Source of the DNA: Actinomadura hallensis
GTDB taxonomy: Bacteria; Actinomycetota; Actinomycetes; Streptosporangiales; Streptosporangiaceae
Direction of reading: 5' to 3'
Assembly: GCF_006716765.1 (NCBI RefSeq)
Contig: NZ_VFPO01000001.1
Location: 496,001 to 560,000, forward strand
Length of the DNA stretch: 64,000 nucleotides
In this document: piece after piece, positions 1 to 7,937 of the stretch
Layout: every line of letters starts with the position of its first letter
Position numbering within the stretch: the first letter of the stretch is position 1
Program-made: the position numbers and the translations under genes
The notes under the pieces: model-generated
Told to the model about the DNA's origin: nothing
Seen by the model: the letters and a program-made list of their open reading frames with translations, nothing else
Database searches by the model: none

Positions 1-1350
<1,350 letters not shown>

Positions 1351-1402: not shown

Positions 1403-3685
1403 TTAAGAAGCCATGGCTTCCGGGTCGGTTGAGTCGGCTGGGGCGTCGCTGTCTTGCTGTCGGTTCCAGACCTGGTATTCCAGCGCCCAGCGGCGGCGGG
1501 CCCGGCGGCGGCGGTCCTCGTAGTGCCAGTCGTAGATCAGCCACATCAGCCGTTCGTAGTCCAGCGGCTGATCGATGGTGCGCAGCAGGTCGACCAAACC
1601 GCGCAACCGTAGGAGCAACGCGTCGGGATCGATGGTCGTCGCGGCGGCCGTGACCCTGGCGTCGATCGCGTCGGCGCTGAACTTGCCGTGATTTCTGAGT
1701 CGCCGCAGCGCCACGCCCAGTCCGATACCCGGCCGATGCATGGACGTCCGCTTGGACTGCTGGTGCAGCCCGTACAGGGCCAAGGCCGCGTGCTCGGCCT
1801 CTTGCTCACGTGAAACCCGACCTCGTCGGGCCTCGTCGTCGTCGACCTTGAAGGTGTAGAAGCGGCACATCTCCCACAGCTCGTAGGCCCGTGTGTCCAA
1901 CCCCCGCCGCATCAGCGCCAAATCCTCACCGGGCGGCGGGCCGAACTCTTTGATCGTGGGATCGAACGGGAGCCAGCCTCCGTCCTCGTCTACGCGATCC
2001 CAATAGCGGCGTTTCATGCTCGGTCTCCCGGAAATCGTGGTGGAGGCTACCTTGCGTCGTTCCTTCTGCGCGAAGGGCAAGACGTTGTCAATCCGGTCGT
2101 AGAAGGTGTGGAAGGCGTGCCCTAGGCCGAATGACGTATTGGTGCCGTTGTCGGTCTTGTATTCGCGTCCTGCGAAGATGTTTTCGGGAACAGAGGCGTA
2201 CACGGAGTCGGCGACCTGCATCGTGGCTCGGACCGCCGTGATCTCCCAGGCTTCTTGGGCTCGCTCTACGACGTCGGCATCGGTGCTGTTCTGCAAGCCA
2301 TGCAGCAGACGGCGCACCGCCGGATCCAAAGCGTGAAGCACACGTTCACCGGGTCGCTGCGCCTTGTCCCAAGGGATGGGGTCCAGACCGGCCGCGCGAC
2401 GCAGATCGTCCGACAGGCGGTTCACCGCCTGCGCCAGTTGCTCAGCTTGGTCGACCGCGTCCAGCACAAATTCGTGCACATCGGCATTGGCGCGCAGGGC
2501 GGCTACTGGCAGAGGCGTCAGATCGTGGAGGACGTCCTCAACGACGGCGGACTGGTTGCCATAGAGCATCCCGAACGTCTCCACCCGCAATGGGTAGCGT
2601 TCATCGAACAACCCCTCAGCTGCGAGCCCGCCGAGCTGGTCCAGCAACTCGCTGGTCTCAAAGCCCCTGACATGCTCGTTGCCGCTTACCGCCAGCAACG
2701 CGTTCAGCCCGCGCCAGATCGCCTTGCCCGGGGTGTGTCGCAAGGGGCGCAGCGGTGACGAGGTCGTCGTCTTCCTGCCGATTTTCGTGGACGGGTTGTT
2801 CGCCCTCCATGCCGTATGCGGCTCTTTGTCCGGGATGACGCTCAGCCGATCTCCAGCCGCCACAATCACGCGTGTGACCCGTGGCCCCTCGTCCGTGTCC
2901 TCGGGAACCAGGCGGATCCGACGGGACTGCCAGGTCCACAGATCCAGCAGTCCATCGACAGCCCGAATTTCCCATTCCGGACCGAGCGTGCGCTTCCACT
3001 GCGGCGTGCCCAGCCACCCTCCGACGCCGATAGGGAGATTCAGCAGCAGCGTGTCGTAGAGGGTACGCCCGATCGGCATCACCACTCCGAGCTGCCCCAA
3101 GGGGCCGGTCGGGTTTCCGGTTGTCTTACCGCCCTTGGCCTTGGGGTCGCCGACTACGCCCGTCTTGATCGCGGCGGTATCCCAGCAGTGTGCGTGCACC
3201 AGCCACCGCGCAGCCTCGGCGGGCGTCAACGGCAGCGGGTCAGCCTCGGTACGTGAGGCGAACAACGGCACGTTGTTCCCCGTCGCCGCCGTCGCCACCA
3301 GCAATGCCGAGCCTTTGGTCTCCCCCTTGGACGTTCGCAGGTCACCAACCTGCGCGAACGGTGCGGCGGGGTCGAACAGGTCGAACCGCTGTCGGTGGGT
3401 CTCAAGGTAGGCCCCCAGCTCGTTCCGTTCCCGCTCGTCGAAGCGGCCTTGCGCGAACCGCCGAGCCCACTCCTTGGAATCAGCCGGGCTTCCCAGCGCG
3501 TCCAAGACGATCGGCAGCAGCACCTGCCGCATGATCGCGGGAAGTTGCGTCGGCAGGTCCACGACCAGCTCGCCGTAGGAGCCCGCATTGAGAAGGGCAT
3601 CGGCGATACCCACCTCGGTGATCTCACCGGTCTCCGCGCAACGCAGCCGAAGCCACGGATCGTCAACCAGGTTGAACGAGTTCAT
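1403..3685 (-). CDS. cse1-cse2: Cse1-Cse2 fusion (Cas8e fused to Cas11e), type I-E Cascade
   Basis: A 760-residue fusion of the Cascade large subunit (PAM recognition, Cas3 recruitment) and small subunit. Residues 1 to about 556 are Cse1: NFNLVDDPWLRLR at the N-terminus, the AALRANADVHEFVLDAVDQAE segment (in pieces) and a C-terminal helical bundle. From codon 557 (MKRRYW, ATG at 2017) the sequence matches a whole Cse2: YGLHQQSKRTSMHRPGIGLG, the LRGLVDLLRTIDQPLDY block and a basic C-terminus. In most I-E operons these are separate genes. The start was set at 3685, where AAGGGAG precedes ATG and the conserved N-terminus begins; an upstream in-frame extension to 3799 lacks homology. The Cse2 ATG has its own Shine-Dalgarno (GGGAG), so free Cse2 may also be made. 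There is no stop or frameshift at the junction. Confidence 0.92.
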   Translation of the reverse strand: MNSFNLVDDPWLRLRCAETGEITEVGIADALLNAGSYGELVVDLPTQLPAIMRQVLLPIVLDALGSPADSKEWARRFAQGRFDERERNELGAYLETHRQRFDLFDPAAPFAQVGDLRTSKGETKGSALLVATAATGNNVPLFASRTEADPLPLTPAEAARWLVHAHCWDTAAIKTGVVGDPKAKGGKTTGNPTGPLGQLGVVMPIGRTLYDTLLLNLPIGVGGWLGTPQWKRTLGPEWEIRAVDGLLDLWTWQSRRIRLVPEDTDEGPRVTRVIVAAGDRLSVIPDKEPHTAWRANNPSTKIGRKTTTSSPLRPLRHTPGKAIWRGLNALLAVSGNEHVRGFETSELLDQLGGLAAEGLFDERYPLRVETFGMLYGNQSAVVEDVLHDLTPLPVAALRANADVHEFVLDAVDQAEQLAQAVNRLSDDLRRAAGLDPIPWDKAQRPGERVLHALDPAVRRLLHGLQNSTDADVVERAQEAWEITAVRATMQVADSVYASVPENIFAGREYKTDNGTNTSFGLGHAFHTFYDRIDNVLPFAQKERRKVASTTISGRPSMKRRYWDRVDEDGGWLPFDPTIKEFGPPPGEDLALMRRGLDTRAYELWEMCRFYTFKVDDDEARRGRVSREQEAEHAALALYGLHQQSKRTSMHRPGIGLGVALRRLRNHGKFSADAIDARVTAAATTIDPDALLLRLRGLVDLLRTIDQPLDYERLMWLIYDWHYEDRRRRARRRWALEYQVWNRQQDSDAPADSTDPEAMAS
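2015..2031 (-). promoter_or_regulatory. Internal ribosome-binding site and ATG for separate Cse2
   Basis: Inside the fusion gene, reading on the minus strand, CCGGGAGACCGAGC stands directly before an in-frame ATG (2015-2017) that matches where free Cse2 proteins begin (MKRRYWDRVDEDGGW). GGGAG is 7 nt from the ATG, ideal spacing. Initiation here would give a 204-residue Cse2. Cascade needs one Cse1 and two Cse2, and internal starts that make a small subunit are established for Cas11 in types I-B, I-C and I-D. That it is used here is inference. Confidence 0.55.
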
Positions 3686-3783: not shown

Positions 3784-3813
3784 GGCCAGGTGAGGCCAAT
3801 GCCTCACCTGGCC
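3784..3813 (-). terminator. Perfect 13-bp hairpin after the small toxin-like ORF
   Basis: GGCCAGGTGAGGC, a 4-nt loop (CAAT), then GCCTCACCTGGCC form a perfect 13-bp stem. It begins 12 nt after the stop of the 3826-4020 ORF in the direction of transcription. No U-tract is present, as is common in actinomycetes. It probably ends transcription of the small gene and insulates the Cascade operon. Confidence 0.6.
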
Positions 3814-3825
3814 GGAAGCGAGCAC

Positions 3826-4020
3826 CTAGCGCTTCTTCGGAGGTTTGATCCCCGTAGGCGGTTCACCGCGGGCGACGAGGGTGGCGAGCGAGATGATCGC
3901 AACATGGGCAGGGGCGCCGGTCCAACCCTGATCTTCCACGTGACCAAGCCAGGCGCTGGCGAGCAATGCCGCCAGGACCACAGCGCGATAGTTGATGTTG
4001 ATGACGATCTGGTAGTTCAA
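3826..4020 (-). CDS. Small hydrophobic protein, candidate CreT-like toxin in the cas3-cse1 gap
   Basis: A 64-codon ORF with a TTG start and a strong Shine-Dalgarno (AGGAGG at 4030-4035, 9 nt upstream). The protein has a hydrophobic segment (YRAVVLAALLASAWLGH, about residues 11-27), a second weaker one (APAHVAIISLATLVARG, about 36-52) and a basic tail ending PPKKR, so it may be a small membrane peptide. A hairpin follows the stop. Its putative -10 (TATACG, 4050-4055) lies inside a 16/18 match to the pseudo-spacer of the crRNA-like element at 4195-4273, the expected arrangement of a CreT toxin silenced by Cascade-CreA. I do not recognise the protein; it could also be an island protein of unrelated function. 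Toxicity is inference. Confidence 0.5.
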   Translation of the reverse strand: MNYQIVININYRAVVLAALLASAWLGHVEDQGWTGAPAHVAIISLATLVARGEPPTGIKPPKKR

Positions 4021-4040
4021 GGTCCTCAGCCTCCTCGAGC

Positions 4041-4061
4041 AATGAGCCCCGTATAGGTCGG
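4041..4061 (+). promoter_or_regulatory. Predicted Cascade target site matching the crRNA-like pseudo-spacer
   Basis: Bases 4044-4061 match pseudo-spacer bases 4226-4243 at 16 of 18 positions. The two mismatches fall at spacer positions 6 and 12, the bases flipped out of the crRNA-DNA duplex in type I-E Cascade. AAT precedes the match in the PAM position. The site covers the putative -10 of the small ORF starting at 4020 and ends about 20 nt before its start codon, so a bound Cascade should block that promoter. Confidence 0.65.
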
Positions 4062-4123
4062 CGTGCTGGCAACGTCCCTCGGTAGTATCCGGGTCGCACC
4101 AAGCAACCGCATCGAAGGCACCA

Positions 4124-4147
4124 ACGCTGACCGCAAGCGGTCAGCGT
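4124..4147. repeat. Perfect 24-bp inverted repeat (11-2-11)
   Basis: ACGCTGACCGC, central AA, GCGGTCAGCGT. It lies between the small-ORF promoter (minus strand) and the crRNA-like element (plus strand), within the divergent promoter region. A perfect dyad with two-fold symmetry in this place looks like an operator for a dimeric regulator; it could alternatively be a hairpin terminator. No regulator gene is adjacent. Confidence 0.6.
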
Positions 4148-4194
4148 GCATTCCTGGACCCGAGCCAGGTAGGTTCTACGGGCGGTGTAAGCGC

Positions 4195-4273
4195 ATCGGC
4201 CCCGCCAACCTGCGGGGATGGCCCTGAGCCACGTATCGGTCGGGCGTCGGCCCCGCACGCGCGGGGTGGCCGG
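4195..4273 (+). ncRNA. crRNA-like element: degenerate repeat - 20-nt pseudo-spacer - degenerate repeat (candidate CreA)
   Basis: Pseudo-repeat 1 (4195-4224) and pseudo-repeat 2 (4246-4273) resemble the array repeat at 7359-7937 in the same strand sense. Both keep the CCCCGC...GCGGGG stem that Cas6e would bind. Repeat 1 has a 2-nt larger loop and keeps ATGGCCC versus the array's ATGGTCC as the 5' handle; repeat 2 has lost the A of the handle and diverges at its 3' end. The enclosed pseudo-spacer (4226-4245) is 20 nt, shorter than the array spacers. It matches the promoter of the neighbouring small ORF (4044-4061). Degenerate repeats, a short spacer and a target in an adjacent small-gene promoter inside a cas locus are the hallmarks of CreA antitoxin RNAs. 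A promoter is expected around 4147-4182 (TAGGTT at 4170-4175 is a weak -10). Confidence 0.65.
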
Positions 4274-4302
4274 TGGAGTGGCTTAAGTCGCTCCACCGGC
4301 CA
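4267..4302. terminator. Bidirectional hairpin between cas3 and the crRNA-like element
   Basis: TGGCCGGTGGAG pairs with CTCCACCGGCCA (12 bp), and the stem continues with wobble pairs around a TTAA loop. On the minus strand it starts 30 nt after the cas3 stop; on the plus strand it overlaps the 3' end of pseudo-repeat 2. It probably terminates both cas3 and the crRNA-like RNA, which would separate cas3 transcription from the Cascade operon. Confidence 0.6.
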
Positions 4303-4331: not shown

Positions 4332-7298
4332 TCAGCGCACGACGAGGCCGAGGTCCTTGTCGTAGGTGAGGTGCACGTTGCCCAGCGATGCGGACTGCTG
4401 GTCCTCGGTGAAGATGAGTGCGCGGCTATAGCGCAGCCACGGATGCTCGCGCCACTCAGGAAGTGGGCGGAGCTCTTCCTCAGCAGCTCGGGTCAGCTTC
4501 GCAGGCAGACGGACGGTTGAGCCGAGAAGGTCGTCCAAGACCTCGGTCGATGCTTCTCCGGTGATGACCAGGGAGCGTCCCGACAGGGTGCGGTAGCCGC
4601 GGCGGTCTTGGCGTACGAGCACGACTTCGATGCTGGTCTCCCCGTCGCGGACCATCGCCCGATGGTGTTCCTCGTCCAGCGTTTCCTGCGAACCGCCGCG
4701 ATGCAGTCCCGCCAACGTGGTGCGCTCATGCTCTCCGCGTCGCGCGAGCAAGAAGGGCTCGGCGGCCTCGGCGCGTGCTCGTTGCGTTGTAGTCCACTCT
4801 GCGAATGCCTCGGCTTCCGCTTCAGCCCAAGCCTCCGGAACGGACTTCTGCTCGGACTCGTACACGGCGGCCACGAGTTCGGGGACCTTGTCAGGAATGG
4901 ACCAGGCCGTACCTGCCGCCGCCGTCACCAACGCAGCAGTCCGCAGAAGCAGGTAACGCCCGTAGATTCCAACACTCTCCGGCAGGATCCAGGGAGCGGC
5001 GCTGTCACGAGGGCCGAACCCTGTGACGATGACCCATGGCTCACGAAGCGCGTCGGGCCGCACTACACCGGCGTGACGATGCACACGTCCCATCCGCTGC
5101 AAGAGCAGGTCTATTGGAGCCAGGTCGCTGATCAGCACGTCAGCGTCGATGTCGAAGGACTGCTCGGCTATCTGGGTCGCGACCAAGATCAAGCGCCTAG
5201 GACGTGTCGTGCCTTTCTGGGCGGGTGAGCCAAGCAGTCGAAGACATTCCTCAGTGCGGTCAGCACGATCGGCCACCGTGAGCCTTCCGTGCAGCAGCCG
5301 CACGTCGTCGCCGAATTCCTTGTGGAGGGCGAGGTAGGTCTGCTGCGCCCGGTCAACCGTGTTGCGGATGACGAGCGCGCATCCACCGTCGGCCAGTCGC
5401 TTCCTCAGAACGGCAACAACGTCCCGATCCCGCGGGGGAGTCTGAGCCAGGTCTTCGTCACCCTTCGCTGGTGGAGCTTCGGGAAGTACCTCGATCTGGA
5501 CAGCAACAGGCGTCTTCCAAGCCGGGCAGTCTTCGACGGCGTGAGCGATTCCCTCCGGGCTGTTCCACACCGCCGTGACACTTGGGTAGCCGTTCGGCAC
5601 CGGGACTGCGGAGACATCCGCCTCTTCACGTGACTGTGCCCCAGCCAGATACGCGGCCTGAAGCTCACGCCTCTGCGCCGAGGGCAGCGTGGCCGAGAGC
5701 AGTACCACGGGTACTCCCGCCTGCCCCAGCCAACGCAACCCTTCGGCCAAGAACTGCGACATGTACACGTCGACGGCATGGACCTCATCGAGGATGACGA
5801 CCTTGCCGGCCAGTCCCGCCATGCGGAGCATCACGTGCTTCGTGCGCGTGGCGGCAAAGAGCAACTGGTCGATGGTCCCCACCACGAACGGGCTTAGCAG
5901 ATCGCGCTTGTTTCCCAGAAACCACTCGGCAGGAGCGCGCCGCTCCTGAGCGGCTGTCGTGTGCCCCTCCGCCAGCTCGGAACGGTATGGGTCCTCAAGA
6001 CCGAAGTCGTCTTCCTGGACGCTGTCGAAACGATCGTCAGGACTCGCACCTGCGTCCTCGACGAGCGCACGCCACTCCTTGTTGAACATGCGCTTGCCAT
6101 GCAGCAGCGTGACCTGGGCTTCCAGCCCCGGATCCAGCGCGCTCAGCCACTTGCGTACGTTGCTGAACATCGGATCACTCGTCGCCTGGGTCGGCATCCC
6201 GACGAACACACCGTCCATTGCGAAGCGGGCCGCCAACATCTCCGCAGCCAACAGCGCCGCTTTGGTCTTGCCTTCCCCCATCGGAGCCTCGACGATGACC
6301 AACCCTGGCGCCCCCATCTGCGACACGACGTCGAGCACCAAGGTCTGCGACCCGCGCGGTGGATCTCCAAAGCGTTGGACGAAGCTGTGCTGATCAGGCG
6401 GACTCAGCCGTCCCCACCCACCACGGAGCCCGAGCCTCGACCACGCCGCCAAGGCCCGGGCCCGAGCGGTCTGCATGCTTACCGTGTCCAGTTCGTCAAT
6501 ACCCTTGAAGTGCTTCTTGTCGCTGGAAATCCAGTCCGCCATCACGACGAAGCCGCTCACCTGCAACTGCAGCGCGCGGCTGGGTACTGTTCGCGGTTGC
6601 ACCTCGGCCAGGTCAGCGAACCCCACGGCGCGGGTGAAGACGTCCAGCAACTGTCGCCGCACCTGATCCCACGCAGTGCCCTCCCCGCTGAGCCGTTTCA
6701 CCGAGCGCATACCGCGGCTCGCGGTCCCCAGCGAGGGAAAAACACCATGGTGACCAGCGATCAGCGGCCACACCCAGTCAACTTGATCTTCATCCCAGCC
6801 GGCTTCCTTTAACAGCGAACGAATGAGCACGCCACCCGCTGCGTCATGCCCCCAGCGCTTCCTGCGAAGCGCATGGAGATCGAACGGCAAGCCAGCGCGC
6901 CGGACGCGCTCCATCCCGGCCTCGTCTATGAACTGAAACGCCGGGATGGCTTTCCCGAAGTCGTGAACCCCGCACAGCCAGGTGAACAGTCTTCGACCAC
7001 TGCCCTCACCACCGCCGGCCACCCCGTCGAGCGCACGCCGAAGCGAGGGAGCCAAATAGCGGTCCCAGATCAGCTCCGCGACCGCCGCCGTGTCGAGCAA
7101 GTGCGACAGCAACAGGTTCGCCCGACCACCCGCACGCTTGGCGCTCTTCCCCCACAACGCACCCAGCTGACGCCGCAACGCCGAGTCCGCGCCGACCATA
7201 AGATCGGCCACACCCACTGGTGGCATCTCTTCATCCACAAGCGGAACAGTAGAAGATGCCCCTGACGAAAAGCGGCCACTCGGCTCTGCTCGCTCCAT
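4332..7298 (-). CDS. cas3: Cas3 helicase-nuclease, type I-E
   Basis: About 988 residues. Order: N-terminal HD nuclease (conserved SLWGKS-like ALWGKSAKRAGG; LLSHLLDTAAVAELIWDRYL; HDFGK metal-binding motif), then an SF2 helicase with Walker A (EAPMGEGKTKAALLA), DEVH box (VVILDEVHAVD), motif III (LLSATLPS) and a C-terminal helicase lobe with QRMGRVHRH. It degrades the non-target strand after recruitment by Cse1. The start is uncertain: 7298 is the first ATG (a TTG at 7310 is in frame), and another ATG at 7226 has GAAGAG before it. It is transcribed away from the CRISPR array and separated from cse1 by 646 bp with a terminator. Confidence 0.95.
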   Translation of the reverse strand: MERAEPSGRFSSGASSTVPLVDEEMPPVGVADLMVGADSALRRQLGALWGKSAKRAGGRANLLLSHLLDTAAVAELIWDRYLAPSLRRALDGVAGGGEGSGRRLFTWLCGVHDFGKAIPAFQFIDEAGMERVRRAGLPFDLHALRRKRWGHDAAGGVLIRSLLKEAGWDEDQVDWVWPLIAGHHGVFPSLGTASRGMRSVKRLSGEGTAWDQVRRQLLDVFTRAVGFADLAEVQPRTVPSRALQLQVSGFVVMADWISSDKKHFKGIDELDTVSMQTARARALAAWSRLGLRGGWGRLSPPDQHSFVQRFGDPPRGSQTLVLDVVSQMGAPGLVIVEAPMGEGKTKAALLAAEMLAARFAMDGVFVGMPTQATSDPMFSNVRKWLSALDPGLEAQVTLLHGKRMFNKEWRALVEDAGASPDDRFDSVQEDDFGLEDPYRSELAEGHTTAAQERRAPAEWFLGNKRDLLSPFVVGTIDQLLFAATRTKHVMLRMAGLAGKVVILDEVHAVDVYMSQFLAEGLRWLGQAGVPVVLLSATLPSAQRRELQAAYLAGAQSREEADVSAVPVPNGYPSVTAVWNSPEGIAHAVEDCPAWKTPVAVQIEVLPEAPPAKGDEDLAQTPPRDRDVVAVLRKRLADGGCALVIRNTVDRAQQTYLALHKEFGDDVRLLHGRLTVADRADRTEECLRLLGSPAQKGTTRPRRLILVATQIAEQSFDIDADVLISDLAPIDLLLQRMGRVHRHAGVVRPDALREPWVIVTGFGPRDSAAPWILPESVGIYGRYLLLRTAALVTAAAGTAWSIPDKVPELVAAVYESEQKSVPEAWAEAEAEAFAEWTTTQRARAEAAEPFLLARRGEHERTTLAGLHRGGSQETLDEEHHRAMVRDGETSIEVVLVRQDRRGYRTLSGRSLVITGEASTEVLDDLLGSTVRLPAKLTRAAEEELRPLPEWREHPWLRYSRALIFTEDQQSASLGNVHLTYDKDLGLVVR

Positions 7299-7358: not shown

Positions 7359-7937
7359 GTCGGCCCCGCACACGCGGGGATGGTCCGCAAGAGGGGAGCA
7401 ATCTCTTTCCCGTGCGTGAGTCGGCCCCGCACACGCGGGGATGGTCCCCTGACTGAAAGAGCGAGGCTCAGTATCGCGCCGTCGGCCCCGCACACGCGGG
7501 GATGGTCCCCCGCTGCCGGTGACCGGAGGAGGGGACGGGGGGGTCGGCCCCGCACACGCGGGGATGGTCCCCTGACTGAAAGAGCGAGGCTCAGTATCGC
7601 GCCGTCGGCCCCGCACACGCGGGGATGGTCCCCTATGGGGGGCTGATGACACAAGTTTCGTGGCGTCGGCCCCGCACACGCGGGGATGGTCCCCCGCTGC
7701 CGGTGACCGGAGGAGGGGACGGGGGGGTCGGCCCCGCACACGCGGGGATGGTCCCCAATCCGGATCGTGGCTCAGCCTGGCGAACAGGTCGGCCCCGCAC
7801 ACGCGGGGATGGTCCTGCGCGCCAGCTCGGGCTTGCGGTGCCGTCCCCGTCGGCCCCGCACACGCGGGGATGGTCCCGACAGGCCCTTGCAGTAGTAGTC
7901 GTAGGTCAGGTCGGCCCCGCACACGCGGGGATGGTCC
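7359..7937 (+). CRISPR. Type I-E CRISPR array, 10 repeats and 9 spacers (7 distinct)
   Basis: Ten identical 28-nt repeats (GTCGGCCCCGC, loop ACAC, GCGGGGATGGTCC) begin at 7359, 7420, 7481, 7543, 7604, 7665, 7727, 7788, 7849 and 7910. Spacers are 33 nt except two of 34. Spacer 2 (7448-7480) equals spacer 4 (7571-7603), and spacer 3 (7509-7542) equals spacer 6 (7693-7726), so rearrangement or duplication has occurred. The first base after the repeat is C for 7 of 9 spacers, which suggests a 29-nt unit with a PAM-derived last base. No terminal repeat is degenerate; the array simply stops at an IS30 fragment. Spacer 9 read on the minus strand gives an open LTYDYYCKGLS, but no source is known. Confidence 0.99.

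Follow-up and report, generated by a model that had tools for sequence, protein, structure and literature searches.

The window, a 64-kb stretch of Actinomadura hallensis DNA at positions 496001-560000 of a 6.70-Mb genome, contains a type I-E cas locus in which a mini-CRISPR and a divergent small gene, here called ORF64, occupy the 646 nt that separate cas3 from cas8e (sequence, Pfam and PADLOC). Window coordinates, strands and the basis of each assignment are as follows.

217..1350, minus strand: cas7e (CT1975-like, PF09344; Pfam E 2.2e-116).
1403..3685, minus strand: cas8e fused to cse2/cas11e in a single 760-aa frame (Pfam Cse1 at residues 5-490 and Cse2 at residues 588-737; PADLOC Cas8e and Cas11e).
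3784..3813, minus strand: 13-bp perfect hairpin, a possible terminator without a T tract, 12 nt past the ORF64 stop (fold -30.9 kcal/mol, z -4.1).
3826..4020, minus strand: ORF64, candidate creT, 64 codons with a TTG start (sequence, hydropathy, single-sequence AlphaFold2).
4030..4035, minus strand: AGGAGG, Shine-Dalgarno-like, 9 nt ahead of the TTG (sequence).
4041..4043, plus strand: AAT at the PAM position (sequence; in a scan of related loci without a PAM requirement, the target follows AAN).
4044..4061, plus strand: target (protospacer) of the mini-CRISPR guide, 16/18 match, unique in the genome.
4055-4050, minus strand: putative -10 element TATACG, equal to target positions 7-12 (sequence).
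4124..4147, no strand assigned: 10-bp hairpin between the divergent candidate creT and creA units (fold -21.8 kcal/mol for 4110-4160, z -3.9).
4195..4225, plus strand: PsiR1, degenerate repeat of 31 nt, with the 5' handle ATGGCCCT at 4218-4225.
4226..4245, plus strand: pseudo-spacer (guide), 20 nt (window scan).
4246..4273, plus strand: PsiR2, degenerate repeat with the 3'-handle part kept (20/21 against the array repeat).
4267..4302, no strand assigned: 16-bp hairpin where the creA 3' end faces the cas3 3' end, a possible bidirectional terminator (plus-strand fold -36.8 kcal/mol, z -6.8; minus-strand fold -26.5 kcal/mol, z -4.8).
4332..7298, minus strand: cas3 with HD, helicase and Cas3_C domains (Pfam; PADLOC Cas3e 2.9e-203).
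7359..7937, plus strand: CRISPR array with the 28-nt repeat GTCGGCCCCGCACACGCGGGGATGGTCC (sequence, repeat search).

The cas8e/cse2 fusion at 1403-3685 is continuous in the window; in several relatives a stop or a frame change lies between the two parts. Within the array, repeat-spacer units are doubled (7420-7510 equals 7543-7633, and 7470-7572 resembles 7654-7756, at 100% and 97% identity), which suggests duplication of a segment within the array. A 97% copy of the array repeat lies outside the window across the cas genes (G000:C1:493279-493307) and perhaps represents a second array. Also outside the window is a second type I-E system (G000:C1:2721672-2729681) with a Cas8e that is 34% identical and array repeats that are closely similar, and guides could be common to both I-E systems of the genome. 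The guide-target scan returned no accepted mini-CRISPR pair upstream of the second-system cas8e (L069).

An earlier note on this DNA had described two degenerate repeats around a 20-nt pseudo-spacer, and the sequence confirms them. The coordinates given for PsiR2 hold, and those of PsiR1 were corrected from 4195-4224 to 4195-4225. PsiR1 retains six of the seven fixed handle bases and has a loop 2 nt longer than that of the array repeat; PsiR2 equals the array repeat at 20 of 21 leading bases, and its handle has decayed to one of seven. The scan reproduced the 16 of 18 matching positions between guide and target, the mismatches at positions 6 and 12 only, and the AAT that adjoins the target in the PAM position. 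In type I-E Cascade, every sixth base stays unpaired. Elsewhere on the two strands of the 64-kb window, every site has at least four mismatches when positions 6, 12 and 18 are ignored. Guide and target are the sole occurrences of the exact pattern GAGCCNCGTATNGG in the 6.7-Mb genome, in which a control pattern had 0 matches. The features of a CreTA module that are present comprise a pair of degenerate repeats within a cas locus, of which PsiR1 has the 5' handle and PsiR2 the 3'-handle part; a PAM-flanked partial match 24 nt upstream of a small gene, ORF64; and a small ORF with a Shine-Dalgarno sequence on the minus strand, divergent from the plus-strand creA. By its position, the target site would be the promoter region of ORF64. 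cas8e lies 359 nt from this target, and the window guide has no other accepted pair.

The TTG-started frame of 64 codons and its AGGAGG site, both claimed previously, are present in the sequence. Lying 24 nt downstream of the target, ORF64 has a good Shine-Dalgarno sequence and is followed by a strong hairpin after the stop; its GC3 is 0.75, against 0.74 for cas3 and 0.80 for cas8e. Its product had been called small and hydrophobic, which is borne out by two hydrophobic segments with best 19-residue hydropathy values of 1.73 and 1.33; a short basic tail follows, and the net charge is +3. Single-sequence AlphaFold2 predicted helices at residues 3-30 and 37-50 with moderate confidence (mean pLDDT 70). 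A sequence search returned one 97% identical cluster among 5.8 billion, which may be the window's own ORF64 protein. No homologs were found in the 149 other genomes of the family, and no Pfam or PADLOC family was recognised; the KilA-N domain, typical of CrePA toxins, is thereby absent at the level of Pfam matches. Nor does the sequence contain an early pair of rare codons of the AGA or AUA kind, and no sign of rare-codon tRNA sequestration was seen. ORF64 could also be a leader gene that does no harm, or a frame that overlies a small RNA by chance.

A genome of the same genus (L028, G271:C32) has a 57-aa hydrophobic ORF at -369..-198 from cas8e, which is the place of ORF64 in the gap. It aligns weakly with ORF64, with 33% identity across 46 aa in blastp (E 0.009) and E 0.0017 in phmmer, both run against that single sequence. 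Homology is not claimed, because no mini-CRISPR guide was detected here and a single exact pattern, conjectured from the promoter of this ORF, had 0 matches in the genome.

Related loci were collected through Cas8e searches, which gave a match in 130 of 341 genomes of the family, 66 of 394 genomes of the class, 138 of 394 genomes of the Streptomyces-type family and 20 of 35 genomes of the Frankia-type family; a collection of named genomes contributed nine loci. A subset of the Cas8e matches was sampled, with at most 30 loci per search among the matches listed and 40 further regions, and the analysis covered the regions upstream of cas8e at 152 loci, duplicates among them. Starts of cas8e were set at the nearest in-frame start codon, and four of 107 loci (L041, L050, L052 and L054) were unplaceable. 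The scans gave no weight to positions 6, 12 and 18, and agreement at positions 1-5 and 7-11 arises by construction. Thirteen loci were excluded by name (L018, L053, L066, L067, L076, L077, L082, L092, L111, L122, L132, L142 and L143) because their pairs were judged to be array repeats or coding repeats or had no fitting handle; in L067 no pair was left in the scan. All sense-strand pairs, two pairs of L037 without a fitting handle and the far secondary pairs of L140 and L158 were likewise left out of the counts. L025, detected solely by the PAM-free scan, stands outside the count and would be the 48th locus.

In 47 of the 152 loci, counting non-identical pairs, the stretch between cas3 and cas8e carries an antisense guide and an AAN-flanked target that matches it. 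Ten of the remaining loci repeat counted pairs, and 95, among them the sampled loci of the more distant I-E clade, have no accepted pair. The hairpin of the second repeat is at the expected place in 43 of the 47. When the PAM requirement was dropped, AAN preceded the best match in 14 of 15 distinct loci scoring at least 8.5, and in L013 the AAN site ranked second; for the lower-scoring handle candidates L011/L021, L027, L035, L100 and L103, the PAM-free scan found nothing. The third PAM base was distributed over 50 pairs as AAC 27, AAT 12, AAG 8 and AAA 3, counts that tell of the third base only, since the later scans required AA. The sense-strand pairs left out include one of high score in L018, on a Planctomycetia contig (score 15, AAT, about -132 and -63 from cas8e, behind a hairpin), which may be a real regulator or just array repeats.

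Covariation of pseudo-spacer and target, which the earlier note had proposed to look for, was seen across the 47 loci in the own and cross scores, with ORF64 in the window alone. The window guide scores 15 on its own target and at most 5.7 on the targets of other loci, and 56 of 2450 cross-locus scores reach 8.5 or more. The 47 loci are not independent, since related loci share guides, although the window guide is not among the shared ones. Guide and target of one genome of the same genus (L024, G320) are identical to those of A. viridilutea DSM 44433 (L012), and the Cas8e of L045 (G292) is the same as in A. oligospora. Shuffled guides reached a score of 12 in 0 of 132 trials and a score of 10 in two of 132; among 44 candidate guides, duplicates included, four reached 12 and twelve reached 10, seven of the twelve beside AAN. 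In base-shuffled regions, about 1.2 pairs at a score of at least 10 and eight at a score of at least 8.5 are expected by chance per 103 loci. Several Frankia-type pairs score just 10-11, near the level of about 1.2 chance pairs, and since chance pairs are expected, a single weak pair is not taken as proof; the clustering of pairs by place is. Agreement at position 6 (13 of 47 loci) and position 12 (5 of 47) is as for unconstrained bases. Plain duplication as the origin of the guide-target match was ruled out by the mismatches at 6 and 12, where duplicated copies would agree and the guide RNA of a type I-E Cascade is free to differ. This disagreement argues against duplication only, because a chance pair would disagree there too; against chance stand the shuffles and the clustering by place. 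The guide-target pair is real, and chance is an unlikely origin for it.

Targets fall into groups by their distance upstream of cas8e: 29 of the 47 lie at 6-20 nt, eight at 85-153 nt and ten at 359-579 nt. From its position, a target at 6-20 nt would look like CreR-like autorepression of cas8e. The most distant class consists of the window (359 nt) and nine loci (398-579 nt), each with a small ORF between target and cas8e. Seven of the nine are Frankia-type loci (L095, L098, L100, L101, L103, L108 and L136, with L100 and L103 near-copies), a label taken from database relatives named Frankia and Pseudofrankia, other relatives being from Streptomyces. Their peptides are mutually related and each has a single hydrophobic segment; five of the six distinct peptides also have a strongly basic tail (net charge +8 to +12, against +2 in L101). 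The peptide starts are uncertain; they were read as 70-95 aa, and the longest frames reach 88-136 aa. A relationship between these peptides and ORF64 is not demonstrable (best E 0.27). The other two loci, L023 (about -559..-247 from cas8e) and L034 (about -458..-128), encode homologous PF01527 proteins (E 3e-11 and 9e-9), a transposase HTH family which we take to be the OrfA type of IS3 transposases; these proteins are possible Cascade-repressed regulators or toxins.

Further arrangements were noted in single loci. Tandem double target sites occur in L100/L103 and in L104, the latter without a small ORF of at least 35 aa behind the target. Two Gordonia and Actinomadura oligospora have a solitary repeat-like element some 3 kb ahead of cas8e (L016 about 3055-3080 and 2975-2995, L015 near 3061 and L014 near 3128). 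In L016, the bases that follow it match, by eye, a nearby AAA-preceded site that was unranked in the scan.

The earlier note had placed the target over a -10 element, TATACG. This placement is plausible, but the match to a consensus promoter was not found: between 3660 and 4340 the promoter scan, which covers the sigma-70 type only, returned 0 consensus promoters, and T-tract terminators likewise numbered 0. The same scan did not find a separate consensus promoter for cas8e alone. Across the 47 loci the target has T at position 11 in 39 and A at position 12 in 27, and these positions give TA on the coding strand, with which a -10 element would begin. Behind the small gene, the other displaced-target loci have hairpins weaker than the 3784-3813 hairpin of the window. 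Because the window hairpin lacks a T tract, cas8e has no consensus promoter in the scan and hairpins in the other displaced loci are weaker, transcription into cas8e is possible.

In a Cas8e tree with 71 rows labelled by hand, of which 25 have no pair (L032, L158, L142 and L143 were omitted for short proteins), the window is sister to the CreR-like loci L012, L026 and L027 with support of 100/99. The displaced state requires at least six changes, so targets have switched more than once; the tree does not fix the direction or the root. In the tree, the closest relatives of the window target the front of cas8e, so in the course of evolution the guide probably changed its target between cas8e and a small gene, in a direction that is not fixed. 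A wider proposal, which we put forward tentatively and rate as somewhat short of an even chance, is that the I-E slot of actinomycetes repeatedly switches between CreR guarding of the cas operon and CreTA guarding of swapped-in small genes. These would be the two-helix peptide of ORF64, the Frankia-type membrane peptides with basic tails and a Streptosporangiaceae protein derived from a transposase OrfA. At each switch the guide and the promoter would have been matched anew, without constraint on positions 6 and 12.

The closest described counterpart is the type I-E CreTA of Citrobacter rodentium, whose toxin is encoded by a 96-bp ORF that is translated, lies in the cas3-casA gap and is divergent from creA (PMC12055562). 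The window shares with it the type I-E system, the cas3-casA gap, a crRNA-like gene that lies upstream of a small ORF and on the other strand, and a partial match beside a PAM in the ORF promoter region (PMC12055562). The Citrobacter toxin ORF is reported to lack known homologs, like ORF64, and to need translation for toxicity (PMC12055562). It differs in its 96-bp length, its ATG PAM and a target over a predicted UP element (PMC12055562), whereas the window has 64 codons, a TTG start and an AAT PAM with a target over a putative -10, and lies in an actinomycete. The type I-F CreTA of Acinetobacter likewise lies in a cas3-cas8f (csy1) gap, with two degenerate repeats of which PsiR2 is better kept, a creA divergent from creT and a Shine-Dalgarno sequence ahead of the ORF, but it has a CC PAM, a 33-bp mini-ORF and an RNA toxin (PMC10097628). 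Haloarchaeal type I-B CreTA also has two degenerate repeats, of which PsiR1 better preserves the 8-nt handle and PsiR2 the first 22 nt, and partial complementarity to the creT promoter; it differs in being archaeal, in having the creTA genes around cas6 and in its tRNA-sequestering RNA toxin (PMC8501985). CrePA resembles the proposed module in that CreA and Cascade repress a protein toxin, but that toxin is of the KilA-N kind (PMC12737573) and ORF64 has no Pfam match. CreR is mini-CRISPR autorepression of cas genes (PMC13131331, PMC12948488, PMC12737573), reported for types I-B, I-E and V-A (PMC13131331). The 29 related loci with a guide against the front of cas8e are alike in this respect; the window differs, its target preceding another ORF.

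Among the matches listed from mainly open-access literature, no title named a CreTA module of actinomycetes, which is weak evidence of novelty, and a term search of text from a review of actinomycete CRISPR-Cas systems did not find the words toxin or CreTA (PMC12231136). The earlier note had read the locus as an actinobacterial I-E CreTA with a peptide toxin. Its guide-target reading is strongly supported by the 47 covarying loci, of which 29 have targets at cas8e; an I-E version is not new in kind, because a CreTA of this type with a translated ORF has already been described in Citrobacter rodentium (PMC12055562). What is new here is the actinobacterial series, the apparent switching between CreR and CreTA and the variety of small genes.

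The locus combines this anatomy with a unique guide-target pair and covarying counterparts in related loci. The likeliest reading, which we consider moderately probable, is that of a CreTA-like guard whose small toxin is translated, ORF64 being the candidate creT. CreA would be transcribed, cut by Cas6 at 4218 and loaded onto Cascade, which would be placed on the -10 of ORF64 and repress the gene. Since pairing would stop near base 17, Cascade would stay bound and Cas3 would not cleave. If Cascade were lost, or if an anti-CRISPR blocked it, the cell would produce ORF64, which would be toxic, perhaps at the membrane, membrane damage being a guess. Through the likely silencing of the predicted toxin by Cascade, the cell would depend on a working CRISPR system.

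Control of the cas genes had to be weighed against this because the cas8e promoter region is targeted in 29 of the 47 loci, at 6-20 nt upstream. The guide would then act as in CreR, repressing a promoter that drives ORF64 and, by read-through, the cas8e operon; ORF64 would be no toxin but a leader or accessory gene. That the sister loci of the window (L012, L026 and L027) are of the CreR-like kind, that the sigma-70 scan found no separate cas8e consensus promoter and that CreR has been reported for type I-E (PMC13131331) all agree with such autoregulation. It accounts less readily for an ORF64 with its own Shine-Dalgarno sequence and 13-bp hairpin, standing between the target and a cas8e 359 nt away, and for the unrelated small genes that fill the slot in other loci, unlike a conserved accessory cas gene. 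We regard it as rather unlikely for the window, although it is the chief competing explanation.

A CreTA in which the transcript is toxic, rather than the ORF64 peptide, would follow the haloarchaeal and Acinetobacter pattern, the characterised I-B and I-F CreT being small RNAs (PMC8501985, PMC10097628), and would suit a frame without homologs. We judge it improbable: ORF64 lacks an early rare-codon pair of the AGA/AUA kind, its codon-position GC is like that of coding DNA, and the I-E precedent requires translation (PMC12055562). The degeneracy of both PsiR1 and PsiR2 might instead mark a decayed mini-CRISPR with no present function, yet the handle is retained in PsiR1 and the hairpin in PsiR2, the pair matches save at positions 6 and 12, and guides and targets covary across loci, so that a relic seems very improbable.

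If the reading of the module as a CreTA-like guard with a translated toxin is true, CRISPR-addiction modules would be extended to actinomycetes, and uncharacterised small peptides would join the candidate Cascade-repressed toxins. The related loci would form a natural series in which one element serves autoregulation and addiction, so that it becomes testable whether CreTA arose from CreR or CreR from CreTA. Deletion of Cascade genes may be toxic in such strains, which would matter for the engineering of actinomycetes with their own CRISPR systems.
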